Source: Planctomycetota bacterium
Lineage (GTDB): Bacteria > Planctomycetota > Phycisphaerae > Phycisphaerales > UBA1924
Length of the DNA stretch: 64,000 nt
NCBI GenBank assembly: GCA_014584315.1
Contig: JACTNA010000003.1
Location: forward strand, 1 to 64,000
Direction: 5' to 3'
Shown here: positions 33,664 through 43,747 of the stretch, one piece after another
Position numbering within the stretch: position 1 is the stretch's first letter
How the letters are laid out: each line of letters starts with the position of its first letter
Translations under genes and position numbers: made by a program
The notes under the pieces: generated by a model
What the model saw: only the letters and a program-made list of their open reading frames with translations
Database searches by the model: none
What the model was told of the DNA's origin: nothing

Positions 33664-35046
33664 TCAGGAGTCTAGGAGCGAACCCGCGACCGAACCTCGC
33701 TCCGCGACCGGACCACTCGAATAACACTCCTCCAGCACGCTCCGCCAGTCCTCCAGGCCGCACACGCCCACGAATCTCCGGCGCACCTCCTCGGCTCTCG
33801 GGTGATGCTCCGCGAAACGGATGCCGAACTTCCGCATCGTCTTGCCCGTGTACGCCTCCGGCCGGCGCGCCCCCGCGTTCACCGCCAGCGCGAGCGTGAA
33901 GTGCTCCTCCAGCACGGCCCGCTGCTCCTGCACGCTCGGCGCGGCCGGCGCCTCGCCCGCCATGATCCGCCGCGCCTGCCGGAAGACCCACGGGTTCCCG
34001 ATGCACCCCCGCGCCACCGCCGCCGCGTTCACGCCCGTGTAGCCGATCATGCGGAACACGTCCTCCGCGCTCCACACGTCCCCCGAGCCGAAGACCACCC
34101 GCTCCGGGTCGCGCCGCCTCGCCTCCCGCACGACCTGCCGCAGCACGTCCCACCGGCTCGGCCCGACGTATTTCTGCTCCACCGTCCGCGCGTGCACCGT
34201 CGCCCACGCGTACCCCATCTCGTACGCCGCGTCGAGGATGCGCCGGAACGCCTCCGCCATCTCCGGCGTGTCGTCGAACGACCGCCGCAACTTCACCGTC
34301 GTCGGCACGCTCGCCGGCAGCGCCTCGCGCACCGCCTCCAGCATCCGGATCGCCCCCTCCGGCTCCGCCAGCCAGTGCCCCCCCCGCGCCTTGCTCGCGA
34401 TCTTCTTCACCGGGCACGCCAGGTTCACGTCGATCGCCGCGAACGACAGGTCGGCACGCGAATGATCGTCGCCTCCGCTCCCATTTGGCCCTTTGGCCAT
34501 TTGGCCCTTTGGCCATCTGCCCCTCCCGATCTGCTCCCCACCCGGCAGCCGCAGGTGCCCCTCCGCCCCCGGCGCGAGCGCGCCGTTGTACGCCAGCCGA
34601 CGGTACTCCCGATCCGCACGCTTCCCCTGCTCCACCAACTTCAACGCGGCCGCCGCCATCTCACGCGGCTCGCTCCCCATCAACTGCCCCGCCAGCGGAT
34701 GGTCCTCCTCCCCGCCCGGCACGTTGTCGTGCAACTCCCCCAGGTCCGCCTTCGCGAACCCCCGACCCCCCGCCAGCAGCGTCCGGTCCAGCAGCGCCTC
34801 CGTCACGCAGTACGGGCACCCGTGCCGACGCGCGATGATCCGCATCGCCGCGTCCGAGTACCCCGCAAGCCCCGCCTGGAAGAACGGCCCGTCGAACCCC
34901 GGAACCACCTCACGAACGCGCGGATGCACCCCGCTCTCGCCGTACTCCCGCACCAGCCGCTCCGCGACCCGACGCGCATCCAACGCCTCCGCGCCGGGAG
35001 CGATCGCCGGCGAGGGCGCGGTCGCGTTGGAGCCTGAGCATCCCAT
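33664..35046 (-). CDS. dus: tRNA-dihydrouridine synthase family protein with repeat insertion
   Basis: 460 residues, longer than the usual 320-350. FMN-barrel blocks: PFFQAGLAGYSDAAMRII, CVTEALLDRTLLAG, VNLACPVKKIASKARGG (catalytic Cys), TVKLRRSFDD, WATVHARTVEQKYVGPSRWD, VFGSGDVWSAEDVFRM, CIGNPWVFRQ. It reduces uridine in tRNA. Between about residues 170 and 192 lies a repeat-derived stretch (GRGRWPKGQMAKGPNGSGGD) just before the strand leading to the catalytic Cys. An N-terminal extension of about 50 residues precedes the barrel. The repeat may sit in a surface loop. Confidence 0.85.
   Translation of the reverse strand: MGCSGSNATAPSPAIAPGAEALDARRVAERLVREYGESGVHPRVREVVPGFDGPFFQAGLAGYSDAAMRIIARRHGCPYCVTEALLDRTLLAGGRGFAKADLGELHDNVPGGEEDHPLAGQLMGSEPREMAAAALKLVEQGKRADREYRRLAYNGALAPGAEGHLRLPGGEQIGRGRWPKGQMAKGPNGSGGDDHSRADLSFAAIDVNLACPVKKIASKARGGHWLAEPEGAIRMLEAVREALPASVPTTVKLRRSFDDTPEMAEAFRRILDAAYEMGYAWATVHARTVEQKYVGPSRWDVLRQVVREARRRDPERVVFGSGDVWSAEDVFRMIGYTGVNAAAVARGCIGNPWVFRQARRIMAGEAPAAPSVQEQRAVLEEHFTLALAVNAGARRPEAYTGKTMRKFGIRFAEHHPRAEEVRRRFVGVCGLEDWRSVLEECYSSGPVAERGSVAGSLLDS
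34480..34516. repeat. Period-8 GGCCAAAT repeat inside dus
   Basis: CCATTTGGCCCTTTGGCCAT units, the reverse complement of the queA/murE repeat. In frame it encodes WPKGQMAKGPNG. Confidence 0.8.
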
Positions 35047-35095
35047 ACCCTACAAGGATAGGGTGAGCGCCCAGCGCCACCGAGGAGCCGAGACC

Positions 35096-35560: not shown

Positions 35561-35584
35561 CCCCCCCCTCCCGGGAGCCTCGCC

Positions 35585-36367
35585 GTGGCCAACGTCCTCG
35601 TCGTCGCCCCCCACCCCGACGACGCCGAACTCGGCATGGGCGCAACCATCGCACGACTCGCCGCGCAGGGCCACGACGTCCTCATCCTCGACGCCACCAA
35701 CGGCGAGCCGACCCCGCACGGCGATCCCGACACCCGCGCCCGCGAAGCCGCGGAGGCCGTCCGGCTTCTCTCGCCCGATCCCGCAACGCACCCGCGGGGC
35801 CGCCCGGTCCGGCGAGTCTGCCTCGCCCTGCCCAACCGCTTCGTCACGCACACACTCGAAGCCCGGCACGCCGTCGCCGGCGTCATCCGCGCCCACCAGG
35901 CGCAGGTCATGTTCGTCCCCTTCCCCGAGGACGCCCACCCCGACCACCGCGCCGTCACGCGCATCGCCGAGGACGCCCGCTTCGACGCCAAACTCACCGG
36001 CATCACCATGCCCGAGCCACCAGCCCTCGCGGCGCCAGCCTCAGGACGCAAGACTCAGGACTCAGGACTCAGGACCCCTCCCCCCCCCCTCTACCCCCGC
36101 TGGCTCTTCTACTACTACTGCACCCACCTCCGCATCGTCCCCGAGCCGTCCTTCATCCTCGACGCCACCGGATTCGAGGACGCCAAGCGCGAGTCGATCC
36201 TCGCCTACCGCTCGCAGTTCGTCGTCAACGAGCGCAACCGCGCCGTGCCCGAGTGGGTCATGGACGCGACCCGCTTCTACGGTTCGCGCATCGGCACCCC
36301 GGCCGGCGAACCCTTCTTCGCCCGCGAACCCCTCGGCCTCACCTCCCTCGACTCCCTCCCGCTCTGA
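35585..36367 (+). CDS. PIG-L/LmbE-family deacetylase (BshB1-like) with repeat insertion
   Basis: 260 residues, GTG start. APHPDDAELGMGATIARLAA (metal motif HPDD) and AHPDHRAVTRIAEDARF (HPDH) identify the zinc deacetylase family that includes BshB1 of bacillithiol synthesis and MshB. RSQFVVNERNR near the end supports the BshB1 branch. Residues about 152-166, GRKTQDSGLRTPPPP, are written by a period-7 GACTCAG repeat inserted between helix ALAAPAS and YPRWLFYYYC. The gene is 24 bases after the lipoprotein. Confidence 0.85.
   Translation: MANVLVVAPHPDDAELGMGATIARLAAQGHDVLILDATNGEPTPHGDPDTRAREAAEAVRLLSPDPATHPRGRPVRRVCLALPNRFVTHTLEARHAVAGVIRAHQAQVMFVPFPEDAHPDHRAVTRIAEDARFDAKLTGITMPEPPALAAPASGRKTQDSGLRTPPPPLYPRWLFYYYCTHLRIVPEPSFILDATGFEDAKRESILAYRSQFVVNERNRAVPEWVMDATRFYGSRIGTPAGEPFFAREPLGLTSLDSLPL
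36040..36076. repeat. Period-7 GACTCAG repeat inside the deacetylase gene
   Basis: GACTCAGGACTCAGGACTCA, inside an open frame. Encodes KTQDSGLRTP. Same family as 3907-4005, 9775-9870 and 15661-15694. Confidence 0.85.
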
Positions 36368-36472: not shown

Positions 36473-37957
36473 ATGCCGCACCACACCGAAGACCAGCCGC
36501 CGCGCCAGCCCCAGACGCCGGTCTGGGCCATCATCCTCACCTCCTGCGCCGTCATCGCCACCGCGCACCTGCTCGGCGTCCCCAACCTCACCGAACTCTC
36601 CCTCGGCCTGCCCGTCGGCCTCTGGATCGCCCTCGCCCTCGCCGCCGCCTGGACCGCCTCCACACTCGCTGCCTCCTCTCCTTCTCCTTCCTCCTCCTAT
36701 CCCGGTGGGGCGGGCGTCTCGCCCGCCTCTGTTTCAGGTGGCACGGGCGTCTCGCCCGCCTCTGCCTCAGGTGGGGCGGGCGTCTCGCCCGCCTCTGCCT
36801 CTCTGCACCACCCTCTGCTCATCCCGCGCCTCTCGCTCCCCGCCGAACTGCTCACCCGCGCCGCCGCCCTCATCGGCGAGGCGCTCTCGCTCGCCCTCCG
36901 CGCCGCGCTCGCCGGCGCACCCGCCCTTCGCCCCGCCGACCCCGAGTCCCTCCTCTGCGCCCTGCACGACCGCGCCCGCTGGCCCACGCGCCCCCTCCGC
37001 ATCGGCCTCGACCTCTCCGACGCCGACGCGGCAGCGATCGCACGCGATCCCCCCCCCTGCGCCGTCCGCTGGTTCCGACTGACCGACACCCCGGACCTCA
37101 TGGCCGCCTGCCGTCGCCACCGCCTCGACGCCGTCGTCTCGCGCCACGGCGGCGGCCCGGTGCGCATCGTGACCAACGAGCGCGCAGGACGCCACGCCGC
37201 ACGCCTGGACTGGGCCGCCCCCGACACGCCCTCGCTCGCGGCCGCCTTCCCCCACCGCATCGACACCCAGGGCGTCACCATCGACGCGCCCGCCCCGCTC
37301 GCAGACCCCGACGCCCACGCCGTGCGCGACCTCGCCCTCGCCGCAGCCGCACTCGCCCGCCACCCGGCCCGCCTCGCCCTGCCCGACCGCCTCTTCGGAC
37401 GCCGACCCATCGCCGACCACGCCCCCTTCATGCGCCGGCTCGCCGACCGCCTCGACGCGCCCGGCCCGGCCGAACGCACCATCGCCCGCGTCGTCTCGGC
37501 CTGGGCCGTCAACCGCGACCCCCCCCTCGTCGAGCGCTGCGCCGCGCACGCCCGCACGGACCCGACCGTGCAACTCCGCCTCGCCGCCGCCCGGTTCGCC
37601 GCCGGCGACGACCGCCGCGCCCTCGACGCCCTCACGCACGCCGACCGCCTCCTCCGCTCCGGCGACCCGCCCGCTCGCTTCGACCACGCCGCATTCGTCG
37701 AGGCCGAACTCCGCTGCGGCGACGACGCCCCGCTGACACTCGGGCGCGTCGCCGTCGGCGTCTGCCTCCTCTGCGCCGCCACGCCCGTCGATCGCCTCCG
37801 CTTCATCCGCGACGACATCGACGAGGAAATGCGCTTCGCCCCCTGGCTCGTCGGCCGCGACCAGGACCGGCGCCTGCTGCTCGAAGTCTTCCGCGAACTC
37901 GAACGCTGCCGACGAGCCGACGAACTCGGCCTCCCCGAAGCCGCACAAGCCGCCTGA
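36473..37957 (+). CDS. Unknown membrane protein with 11-residue repeats
   Basis: 494 residues. Two hydrophobic helices near the N-terminus (WAIILTSCAVIATAHLLGVP, GLWIALALAAAWTASTLAAS), then three in-frame 11-residue repeats, GGAGVSPASVS GGTGVSPASA and on (residues about 77-109), then a large soluble Ala/Arg/Asp-rich region (LPAELLTRAAALIGEALSLA, IGLDLSDADAAAIARD, DGVTIDAPA-type, RLLRSGDPPARFDHAAF, RFIRDDIDEEMRFAPWLVGR). No family is recognised. The repeat region is a natural linker between membrane and soluble parts. Confidence 0.7.
   Translation: MPHHTEDQPPRQPQTPVWAIILTSCAVIATAHLLGVPNLTELSLGLPVGLWIALALAAAWTASTLAASSPSPSSSYPGGAGVSPASVSGGTGVSPASASGGAGVSPASASLHHPLLIPRLSLPAELLTRAAALIGEALSLALRAALAGAPALRPADPESLLCALHDRARWPTRPLRIGLDLSDADAAAIARDPPPCAVRWFRLTDTPDLMAACRRHRLDAVVSRHGGGPVRIVTNERAGRHAARLDWAAPDTPSLAAAFPHRIDTQGVTIDAPAPLADPDAHAVRDLALAAAALARHPARLALPDRLFGRRPIADHAPFMRRLADRLDAPGPAERTIARVVSAWAVNRDPPLVERCAAHARTDPTVQLRLAAARFAAGDDRRALDALTHADRLLRSGDPPARFDHAAFVEAELRCGDDAPLTLGRVAVGVCLLCAATPVDRLRFIRDDIDEEMRFAPWLVGRDQDRRLLLEVFRELERCRRADELGLPEAAQAA
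36704..36797. repeat. Three 33-bp in-frame tandem repeats
   Basis: Unit GGTGGGGCGGGCGTCTCGCC plus CGCCTCTG and a short spacer, period 33 starting at 36704, 36737 and 36770. The core GGGCG-TCT-CGCCC is palindromic and resembles the TCC-loop family. Encodes GVSPAS. Confidence 0.85.
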
Positions 37958-40796: not shown

Positions 40797-42092
40797 GTGC
40801 TGCGGACGGCCGATCTCGACTACCACCTGCCGCAGGACCGCGTGGCGGTGCGCCCGGCCGAGCCGCGCGACTCGGCCCGCCTGCTCGTGCTCAGCGGGAG
40901 CGACGCGGATCGGCTCGAACACCTCGCCGTGCGCGACCTGCCGGGCCTGCTCGCGCCGGGCGACCTGCTCGTCGTGAACCGCTCGCGCGTGCTGCCCGCC
41001 CGCTTCGTCGGCGTGCGCGAGGACACCGGCGGCCGCGTCGACGGCCTGTACCTCCACGACGGAGCGGAGCCGGGGACGTGGGTGTGCCTGCTGCGGGCGA
41101 GACGGTTCCGCGAGGGGGCGCGGGTGCTGGTGGGGCAAGGAGCAAATGAGCAAAGAGCAAATAAGCAAATAGGAGAGGGCCAAAGGGCCAAAGAGGGGGA
41201 GGGGGAGGGGGGGGGGAGTGCGAGCGTTGTGCTGACGCTTGTTGAGCGGGCAAGCGAGCCTACCGGTGCGTGGGTGGTGCGGGTGGAGGAAATAGCAAAT
41301 GAGCAAATGGCAAATGAGCAAATAGCAAAGGGGGATAGCGGCGACGAGGGTGAGAACCGGGCGGGATTGACCGCGCCGGAGGTTTTGGAGCGGGTCGGCG
41401 TCGCGCCGTTGCCGCCGTACATTCTGGCCGCTCGGCGCGCGGCGGGGATGGAGACCGACGCGCCGGAGGATCGGGAGTGGTACCAGACGGTGTACGCTGA
41501 GGGGCAGCCAATAGCCAAATGGCCAAAGGGCCAAAGGGCCAAAGAAAAACCACACACTGCCGCGGGTTCGGTGGCCGCGCCGACGGCCGGGCTGCACTTC
41601 ACGGAGGGGCTGTTGCGTGCGGTGGAGGCGCGGGGCGTACGGGTCGCGGGCGTGACGCTCCACGTCGGCGCGGGCACCTTCCGCCCCGTCGAGACCGAGT
41701 TCGTCGAGCAACACCCCATGCACGCCGAATGGTGCTCCATGACGCCGGAGACCGTCGCCCTCGTGGAGCGCACGCGGCGCGAGGGCGGGCGCGTGATCGC
41801 CGTCGGCACCACCGCCGGCCGAACCCTGGAGACGTACGCCCCCGAGGTCGAGCGCACCGGCCGAGTGCCGAACGCGATCGAGACGCGGCTGCTCATCACG
41901 CCCGGCCACCCGTGGCGGTGGGTGGACGCCCTGATGACCAACTTCCACCTGCCCCGCTCGACGCTCATGGCGATGGTGGCGGCGCGACTCGGCGAAAACG
42001 GCGTCGATCGACTCAGGCGGGCGTATGTAGAGGCGGTCGAACGCGGGTACCGATTTTACAGTTACGGCGACGCCATGATCGTGCTGCCGTAG
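40797..42092 (+). CDS. queA: tRNA ribosyltransferase-isomerase with three repeat insertions
   Basis: 431 residues, against about 340-350 usual. QueA makes epoxyqueuosine in tRNA from preQ1 and SAM. Family blocks: TADLDYHLPQDRVAVRPAEP, LVVNRSRVLPARFVG, PTAGLHFTEGLLRAVEARGV, TLHVGAGTFRPVE, GTTAGRTLETYA, RWVDALMTNFHLPRSTLMAM, YRFYSYGDAMIVL. GTG at 40797 has GGAGG four bases upstream. Three inserts are repeat-encoded: ANEQRANKQIGEGQRAKEGE (about residues 117-140), ANEQMANEQIAKGDSG (about 165-185) and IAKWPKGQRAKEKP (about 237-252). They lie between conserved blocks, hence probably in loops. Confidence 0.9.
   Translation: MLRTADLDYHLPQDRVAVRPAEPRDSARLLVLSGSDADRLEHLAVRDLPGLLAPGDLLVVNRSRVLPARFVGVREDTGGRVDGLYLHDGAEPGTWVCLLRARRFREGARVLVGQGANEQRANKQIGEGQRAKEGEGEGGGSASVVLTLVERASEPTGAWVVRVEEIANEQMANEQIAKGDSGDEGENRAGLTAPEVLERVGVAPLPPYILAARRAAGMETDAPEDREWYQTVYAEGQPIAKWPKGQRAKEKPHTAAGSVAAPTAGLHFTEGLLRAVEARGVRVAGVTLHVGAGTFRPVETEFVEQHPMHAEWCSMTPETVALVERTRREGGRVIAVGTTAGRTLETYAPEVERTGRVPNAIETRLLITPGHPWRWVDALMTNFHLPRSTLMAMVAARLGENGVDRLRRAYVEAVERGYRFYSYGDAMIVLP
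41138..41192. repeat. AGCAAAT / GGCCAAA repeats, queA insert 1
   Basis: AGCAAATGAGCAAAGAGCAA and GGGCCAAAGGGCCAAAG, mean period 7-8, ending in a purine run. Confidence 0.85.
41288..41332. repeat. AGCAAAT repeats, queA insert 2
   Basis: AGCAAATGAGCAAATGGCAA and on; alternating 8 and 7 base units. Confidence 0.85.
41507..41551. repeat. GCCAAAT/GGCCAAAG repeats, queA insert 3
   Basis: AGCCAAATGGCCAAAGGGCC and on, period 8, ending in GAAAAAC. Confidence 0.85.
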
Positions 42093-42151
42093 GGCAAAGG
42101 GCCAAAGGGTCAAATGGCCAAAGGGCCAAATGGCCAAAGGGCCAAATGGGA
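42092..42151. repeat. GGCCAAAT repeats between queA and murE
   Basis: Starts in the queA stop codon and runs about 60 bases as AAAGGGCCAAATGGCCAAAG-type octads, up to 36 bases before the murE start. It may affect transcript pairing or coupling. Confidence 0.85.
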
Positions 42152-42187: not shown

Positions 42188-43747
42188 ATGGAGTTGGGCA
42201 GGCTCATCGAGGGAACGGGGGTTCGCGTTGCGGGCGCAGCCGACGGCGTCGTCGTTCGCGGCGTCGCGGAAGACTCGCGCCGCGTCACCCCGGGCGACCT
42301 CTTCATCGCCCGCCCCGGCACGCGCGCCGACGGCCGGGCCTTCATCGCCGACGCCGTCGCGCGCGGGGCCGCCGCCGTCCTCACCGACCCCAGCGTCGAA
42401 GTCGCCGGCGCGCCCGCAGGCGCGGCGCTGCTCGTCGCCGACGATGTCCCCCTCGCCGCCGCCCGCATCGCCGAGCGATTCCACGGCGACCCGTCCTCGC
42501 GCCTCACGCTCATCGGCATCACCGGCACCAACGGCAAGACGACCACCGCCCACCTCGTCCAGCAACTCCTCATCGGCGCGGGACTCCCCTGCGGCCTGAT
42601 CGGCACCGTCTTCACCGACGACGGCTCCGGCCCGCGCGAGTCCTCCCTCACCACGCCCGCCGCCGTCGAGATCAGCGCGACCCTCGCCCGCATGGTGGCC
42701 AACGGCTGCCGCGCCGCCGTCATGGAAGTCTCCAGCCACGCCCTCGACCAGCGCCGAGCCGCCGGACTTCGTTTCGCCGCCGGCGTCTTCACCAACCTCA
42801 CCGGCGACCACCAGGACTACCACGGCTCGATGGACGACTACGCCGCCGCCAAGGCCCGACTCTTCGACGCGCTGCCGCCGAACGCCGACGCCATCGTCAA
42901 CGCCGACGATCCCTGGCACGAACGCATGATCCGATCCTGCCCCGCCCGCGTGGTGCGGTGCCGGGAGTGGGACATGGCCAAAGAGCCAAAGGGCCAAAGG
43001 GACAAAGAGGAGAAGGGCGACGCGGCGGAGGTCATCGTGCTGGCGGAGTCGGCTTCGGGGATGCGCCTTCGAGTCAGCGGCGCATGGGGGGGGATCGAGA
43101 GCCTTGTCCCCCTCGTCGGCAGGCACAACGCCATGAATGTCCTCCAGGCCGTCGCCGCCGCCCACGCGGCCTGCGGCACGCCGGGCGAGTCGATCGCGCG
43201 CGCCCTCCCAACGCTCCGACCGCCCCCCGGCCGACTTGAGCCGGCCCACCGCACAGGCGACGCCGTCCGCGTGCTCGTCGATTACGCCCACACCGACGAC
43301 GCCCTGCGCAACGCCCTGCGCGCCGTGCGCCCGCTCGTCGACGCCGAACGCGGCGAACGCCTCTGGGTCGTCTTCGGCTGCGGGGGCGACCGCGACCGCA
43401 CCAAGCGACCCCGCATGGGCGCAGCCGCCGCCGAACTCGCCGACGCCCTCGTCGTCACCAGCGACAATCCCCGCCGCGAGCAACCCGACGCCATCATCGC
43501 CGAGATCATGGCCGGCATCGAGGGGGGCGCGTCCGACCGCGTCCTCGTGGAGCCGGACCGCCGACGCGCCATCGCCCTCGCCGTCGAGCGCGCCGCGGCC
43601 GGCGACTGGATCGTCATCGCCGGCAAGGGCCACGAGACCTACCAGTTGCTGCCGGACGGCGCGGGCGGCGTGCGACGCATCGACTTCGACGATCGCACCG
43701 TGGCGAGGGAAGCGTTGCGCACGAGGGGCTTGAGGCCCGGGGCTTGA
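42188..43747 (+). CDS. murE: UDP-MurNAc-tripeptide synthetase (meso-DAP type)
   Basis: 519 residues. P-loop LIGITGTNGKTTTAHLVQQL, ATP-site LTGDHQDYHGSMDDYAAAKA, LVPLVGRHNAMNVLQAVAAA and VDYAHTDDALRNAL. The motif DNPR (VVTSDNPRREQPDAI) marks the meso-diaminopimelate-adding type. It adds DAP to UDP-MurNAc-L-Ala-D-Glu. Residues about 262-278, DMAKEPKGQRDKEEKGD, are repeat-encoded, between the central domain strand (RVVRCREW) and the C-terminal strand (AAEVIVLAESASGMRLRVSG). The last residues (RGLRPGA) derive from a GGCTTGA repeat. Confidence 0.93.
   Translation: MELGRLIEGTGVRVAGAADGVVVRGVAEDSRRVTPGDLFIARPGTRADGRAFIADAVARGAAAVLTDPSVEVAGAPAGAALLVADDVPLAAARIAERFHGDPSSRLTLIGITGTNGKTTTAHLVQQLLIGAGLPCGLIGTVFTDDGSGPRESSLTTPAAVEISATLARMVANGCRAAVMEVSSHALDQRRAAGLRFAAGVFTNLTGDHQDYHGSMDDYAAAKARLFDALPPNADAIVNADDPWHERMIRSCPARVVRCREWDMAKEPKGQRDKEEKGDAAEVIVLAESASGMRLRVSGAWGGIESLVPLVGRHNAMNVLQAVAAAHAACGTPGESIARALPTLRPPPGRLEPAHRTGDAVRVLVDYAHTDDALRNALRAVRPLVDAERGERLWVVFGCGGDRDRTKRPRMGAAAAELADALVVTSDNPRREQPDAIIAEIMAGIEGGASDRVLVEPDRRRAIALAVERAAAGDWIVIAGKGHETYQLLPDGAGGVRRIDFDDRTVAREALRTRGLRPGA
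42971..43010. repeat. GGCCAAA repeats inside murE
   Basis: GGCCAAAGAGCCAAAGGGCC and on, 8-base period, in frame with murE. Confidence 0.85.

Follow-up and report, generated by a model that had tools for sequence, protein, structure and literature searches.

Short tandem repeats in frame within QueA and other core enzymes of a planctomycete lineage: probably tolerated loops filtered for readability

Why does a small and ancient tRNA enzyme carry three loops made of short DNA repeats, and were these loops selected or simply tolerated? The question is raised by queA (40797-42092, + strand) in the window, a stretch of 64,000 nucleotides (contig JACTNA010000003.1, positions 1-64,000, of assembly GCA_014584315.1) from an uncultured Planctomycetota bacterium. 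The gene has a GTG start and an uninterrupted reading frame of 431 amino acids. By curated cut-offs the predicted protein is a bona fide member of the QueA family. PF02547 (Pfam) matches residues 5-429 (E 9.7e-100, 334.3 bits against a cut-off of 25), the NCBIfam equivalog NF001140 gives 339.5 against a cut-off of 324, and a second NCBIfam comparison was passed with 287.2 against 267.45. Sequence matches in the PDB were solely QueA of Thermotoga, Bacillus and Thermus, and the significant Foldseek matches of the AlphaFold2 model were QueA structures only (top 1yy3 from Bacillus, 1wdi and 1vky). The fold is present together with all the invariant motifs (YQTVYA, AAPTAGLHF, TNFHLPRSTL and YRFYSYGDAM). 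Ordinary QueA (PDB 1VKY, 1YY3 and 1WDI) has the same fold and the same conserved blocks, but here three loops lie about 22, 22 and 17 residues above the family medians. A tRNA-guanine transglycosylase (Tgt), which supplies the QueA substrate, scores above cut-off in all three congeners studied; QueH was looked for in the queuosine pathway of the host and was not found. Judging from its sequence, QueA would still be a working S-adenosylmethionine:tRNA ribosyltransferase-isomerase.

The inserts were located by tandem repeat calls and alignment, with Tandem Repeats Finder arrays at 41135-41170, 41286-41329 and 41514-41544. Insert 1 (41133-41222, +; residues 113-142, GQGANEQRANKQIGEGQRAKEGEGEGGGSA) is made of RGCAAAK units in alternating 7/8-nt steps, followed by GGCCAAAG units and a G-rich tail. 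Insert 2 (41286-41366, +; residues 164-190, EEIANEQMANEQIAKGDSGDEGENRAG) has RGCAAAT units in steps of 8, 7, 8 and 7 nt, with a 15-nt period that gives the pentapeptide ANEQM/ANEQI. Insert 3 (41502-41564, +; residues 236-256, GQPIAKWPKGQRAKEKPHTAA) consists of GGCCAAAK octamers and is flanked by YQTVYA and GSVAAPTAGLHF. Peptides read from the inserts include ANEQMANEQIAK and WPKGQR. An earlier note on this DNA had described three repeat-derived stretches at separate loops, with the conserved blocks intact, and profiles, loop lengths and arrays confirm this description; its interval of 41138-41551 correctly runs from the first insert to the third, with conserved stretches separating the inserts. 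The note had also put the excess at about 80 residues. This figure holds against the model QueAs of ~346 amino acids only, while within its own family the enzyme has a repeat-related excess of ~61 residues over the medians of 17 relatives (family and order): loops 1, 2 and 3 have 31, 30 and 22 amino acids against medians of 9, 8 and 5. Relatives without repeats also differ in length at these places (3-19, 4-16 and 3-19 amino acids for loops 1, 2 and 3), which suggests that the three loops are naturally permissive. Structure prediction with the inserts in place, a check that the note had named, agrees with this picture, since the confidence of the AlphaFold2 model collapses at all three inserts. 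Values of pLDDT below 50 are found at residues 121-140, 171-173, 179-188 and 236-256, which are the insert sites, plus one three-residue stretch.

Three species were compared, namely this genome (G000) and its congeners G001 and G002, to which QueA is 82% and 80% identical. In the alignment of the queA-murE region, repeat-derived sequence occupies three QueA loops and one MurE loop in all three species, always in frame, so that the claim of frame-keeping insert lengths is true of both congeners as well. The MurE insert (42971-43033, +) is octamer-derived and encodes DMAKEPKGQRDKEEKGDAAEV. Unit sequence and number vary by species in the QueA and MurE inserts, and some copies are degenerate. The same conservation of sites was found in the gene of the tRNA-dihydrouridine synthase Dus (33664-35049, - strand), also within the window, where an octamer array (34483-34522, -) lies in frame, and in the genes of MnmG and of a glycosyltransferase of this genus. 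Since the same sites are filled in all three species, the insertions must be older than the species split. No DNA-close relative without inserts was found, so that empty sites could not be read. In a scan of the genome collection, the sole other named genome with repeat-derived QueA loops was isolate TGS_PLA3 (JAHCJE010000051.1), which is probably the same genome as G002. The other nine QueA matches are 38-61% identical, and arrays are absent from the eight of these that were aligned.

The units belong to a dispersed family of 7/8-nt repeats, GGCCAAAK (8 nt) and RGCAAAT (7-8 nt). The exact 16-mer GGCCAAAKGGCCAAAK, a double unit, occurs in 22 copies in the 3.33-Mb genome, against 0 matches for the reversed pattern, and in 19 and 13 copies in the two congeners, far more than chance would give. 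Beyond the genus its distribution is patchy: five more genera of the family have it, and it is absent from the remaining genera sampled. When two mismatches were allowed, ~20 clusters were detected in G000, to which the RGCAAAT type adds a few; these numbers come from pattern searches and from retrieved stretches of the genome. Arrays are mostly outside genes. By codon scores and alignments about 7 of ~29 elements in G000 are genic, an approximate count, as our home-made codon-score classifier missed inserts that alignments show. The depletion in coding sequence is strong (p ~ 4e-13, assuming 85% of the genome to be coding). With tandem 7/8-nt units at several dispersed loci per genome, the family falls among the long simple sequence repeats (units of 5-11 nt), of which the cyanobacterial STRR are further examples. 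A 37-nt minisatellite of ~7 copies, made of RGCAAAT-like units, is also present in G000 (L069:5254-5527).

One octamer array of seven units fills the gap between queA and murE (42092-42147, +), starting at the queA stop codon. Two other intergenic arrays, L102:4020-4163 in G001 and L072:4065-4096 in G000, have near-identical 20-nt upstream flanks and ~18 and 4 units, respectively; the former lies directly beside a predicted tRNA-Leu. Such great variation in intergenic copy number, up to 18 units in L102, and a unit length that is not a multiple of three would suit a phase-variation switch, in which gain or loss of 8-nt units turns QueA or MurE off and on. However, the genic arrays are in frame in three of three species, their units are imperfect and hence slower to slip, and MurE is expected to be essential for growth, which makes the switch very improbable.

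Arrays in other genes show that the repeats are not peculiar to QueA. In MnmG of this genome (C16:128435-130438; L063/L119), forward and reverse arrays form an inverted pair. Another genus (G010) has an inverted array pair with different unit variants at the same MnmG loop (L159:2371-2438), and the MnmG of G020 is without an array insert. The loop shared by two genera reflects either an old insertion or the repeated use of one permissive site, where insertion was possibly recurrent. In-frame arrays were also found in CysRS and a DEXH helicase of G019, in a PabB-like enzyme of G030 and in a short-chain fatty acid (SCFA) transporter of G010. At one site of this transporter (L158:2900-3000) different short repeat types follow one another, as if the site attracted or tolerated several repeat families. 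Enzymes of tRNA modification account for three of the five array-bearing genes of the genus, QueA, Dus and MnmG (L063:2436-4577). This enrichment comes from a small sample and is left as a lead, because it was noticed post hoc and other genera add MnmG, CysRS, PabB, a helicase and a transporter.

It is unlikely that a mobile element with defined ends, of the RPE or MITE type, brought the repeats into genes. No conserved termini were detected, the information in the flanks of 95 arrays being below 0.85 bit per position, with a purine bias only; copy number and unit type are variable, and most arrays are non-palindromic. In favour of such an element are the dispersed nature of the family, its in-frame insertion in conserved genes, the occasional inverted pairs and the fact that another genus reuses the MnmG loop.

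Selection on the loops was assessed from codon changes. Between G001 and G002, the closest pair, the QueA inserts have a dN of 0.226 and a dS of 0.337, and the rest of QueA has a dN of 0.048 and a dS of 0.371. Nonsynonymous change in the inserts is indistinguishable from neutral (p = 0.28 for this pair; the other pairs give 0.10 and 0.06), with dN/dS below 1 throughout (0.5-0.7). In the QueA body, by contrast, constraint is strong (p ~ 4e-26). Near-neutral insert codons and pLDDT below 50 suggest that the loops are flexible passengers, almost free of constraint. The expansion had been called both tolerated and selected in the earlier note. Tolerance is supported, with intact motifs, low-confidence model loops, three inserts in frame in three species and Tgt present, but selection for the loops is not borne out by codons that evolve in this way (p = 0.06-0.28) beside a constrained body. 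We therefore regard it as improbable that charged flexible loops were expanded because they help QueA in tRNA binding, partner binding or stability, even though all three inserts are kept in three species, their dN/dS is slightly below 1, and QueA, MnmG and Dus are among the five genes affected in the genus. Besides the near-neutral codons, the sequence and even the unit type varies between species, and repeats also occur in proteins as different as MurE, PabB, a helicase and a fatty-acid transporter, with no function common to them. A mild benefit of the loops may be compatible with the near-neutral data. The constraint on the QueA body, and the filling of the same sites in three separate assemblies that are ~18% apart in DNA, leave almost no room for a pseudogene in decay or for an artefact of assembly or gene calling, although the draft genomes are in many contigs and tandem repeats are prone to misassembly.

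The selection that can be detected is purifying: it keeps the frame and the orientation and guards against stop codons. Ten single-arm arrays were counted in genes (three in QueA and one each in MurE, Dus, the glycosyltransferase, the helicase, CysRS, the transporter and PabB), and all of them are in the forward orientation (p = 0.002, where the three QueA inserts are perhaps not independent). Forward units code for hydrophilic peptides, such as MAKEPKGQRAKE, and the reverse strand for hydrophobic ones (LWPFGPLA); one hairpin insert, that of MnmG, includes the hydrophobic orientation. Two antisense arrays scored as genic (L077 and L097) had weak coding scores and were set aside. A second rule concerns codon phase. 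Arrays built purely of 7-nt AGCAAAT units have a stop in every frame, and so do those of GAGCAAAT octamers alone. In this genus, genic arrays with 7-nt steps show strict 7/8 alternation at six of six loci, against 2 of the 19 intergenic arrays with three or more steps (p = 1.6e-4 at the locus level; 2.6e-6 at the pair level, where orthologues are counted repeatedly). One 7+8 alternation makes 15 nt, or five codons, so that codon phase is restored and TAG and TGA stay out of frame. Since GGCCAAAK has no stop in any frame, pure octamer arrays are free of the phase rule. Stop-free reading in six frames was rejected as a special property, as 75% of random 8-mers of 70% GC share it. The octamer arrays in MnmG of G010 and PabB of G030 have a single 7-nt step each and no alternation, so that we restrict the 7/8 rule to RGCAAAT arrays within this genus.

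Three insertions are present in queA, as had been claimed, but their supposed independence is doubtful, since inserts 1 and 2 have a common edge and changed units jointly. On the INDEPENDENCE question, inserts 1 and 2 of G001 have GTGCGCGTGGAGCAAATGGCCAAAGAGCC in common at the left (5') edge, and those of G002 nearly so. In G000 both carry RGCAAAT units, which insert 3 and the MurE insert are without, and the similarity between inserts 1 and 2 is 77% over 79 nt. The queA-murE region holds five arrays in a span of 1.9 kb, for which the expected number of others is ~0.03. Given the common edge, the joint unit change and the clustering of arrays, two or more of the three QueA inserts are likely to have arisen by local copying, putatively through template switching or conversion.

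Taken as a whole, the data are probably best explained by tolerated repeat loops, filtered for readability and without a new function. Short tandem repeats (GGCCAAAK and RGCAAAT) would have spread, chiefly between genes, in a single lineage of Phycisphaeraceae. Before the three species split, a small number of protein genes would have acquired them, with three insertions in queA and one in murE, its neighbour. The survivors would be those insertions that lay in surface loops, in frame and free of stops, with the hydrophilic strand read. They would be translated as flexible, mostly charged loops, whose residues may drift almost neutrally, and the arrays may have spread within queA-murE by local copying, through slippage or template switching. 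Some observations speak against mere passengers: the three inserts persist in three species with a body dS of ~0.4-0.5, over which a neutral load might be lost; insert dN/dS stays below 1; and the MnmG hairpin has a hydrophobic arm. It is conceivable, though rather doubtful, that the short tandem repeat is actively spreading and again and again enters the same permissive loops in core enzymes, most of all in those of tRNA modification (QueA, Dus, and MnmG in two genera), where it becomes locked in a 15-nt (7+8) or 24-nt (3x8) rhythm that can be translated. Such a coding repeat would be selfish or semi-selfish and, in contrast to RPE, would spread by a route of its own.

As tolerated passengers, the loops have their closest precedent in effect in the Rickettsia palindromic elements (RPE), which occur in frame in 19 protein genes and one of which is borne by an active guanylate kinase (PMC2229807). 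Both are dispersed repeats, intergenic as well as in frame in conserved genes, which here include those of QueA, MurE, Dus, MnmG and the glycosyltransferase and, in other genera, of CysRS, the DEXH helicase, PabB, the SCFA transporter and MnmG; translation, a feature of RPE, is predicted from sequence for the present arrays. However, RPE and the related Wolbachia elements are palindromes (105-146 bp for RPE) with terminal inverted repeats (PMC2229807), whereas here a fixed palindrome of ~100-150 bp was not found: the arrays are short, direct and of 7/8 nt, with unconserved ends, and inverted pairs are limited to some loci (MnmG and several intergenic ones). In structure the closest precedent is the long simple repeats such as TAACTGA of Beggiatoaceae, which are mostly intergenic, with genic sets mostly at protein ends (PMC4679880). 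The GGGAATC/GGGGAYT heptamers of Xanthomonas and Nostoc are likewise under-represented in coding regions (PMC4692102). Tandem units of 7-8 nt, few copies per array, a strong intergenic bias, patchy occurrence across lineages and few genic cases are common to all. Unlike TAACTGA-type repeats, the present arrays lie inside conserved enzymes, three in one, and keep codon phase by strict 7/8 alternation. The present case thus unites both precedents, as simple tandem arrays within core enzymes that are tied to codon rhythm. No earlier report of such coding arrays was found in the open-licence papers searched. Repeats that become protein, best known from Rickettsia and Wolbachia, are in this way extended to high-GC planctomycetes and to simple tandem arrays, with a measurable rule for repeat survival in genes that combines orientation, codon phase and the position of the loop. 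With its three insertions conserved across a genus, QueA provides a natural test of the load of disordered loops that an ancient tRNA enzyme can bear, and repeats of this kind can mislead annotation and loop-based inference.

Two further repeats were detected in the window. An ORF without a Pfam match (36473-37957) contains a 33-nt repeat in three copies (36704-36801), which encodes GGAGVSPAS-type repeats. A BshB1-like deacetylase gene (35561-36367) has in its frame a 7-nt CAGGACT tandem repeat (36040-36075), which codes for TQDSGLRT and is stop-free in its present orientation only.
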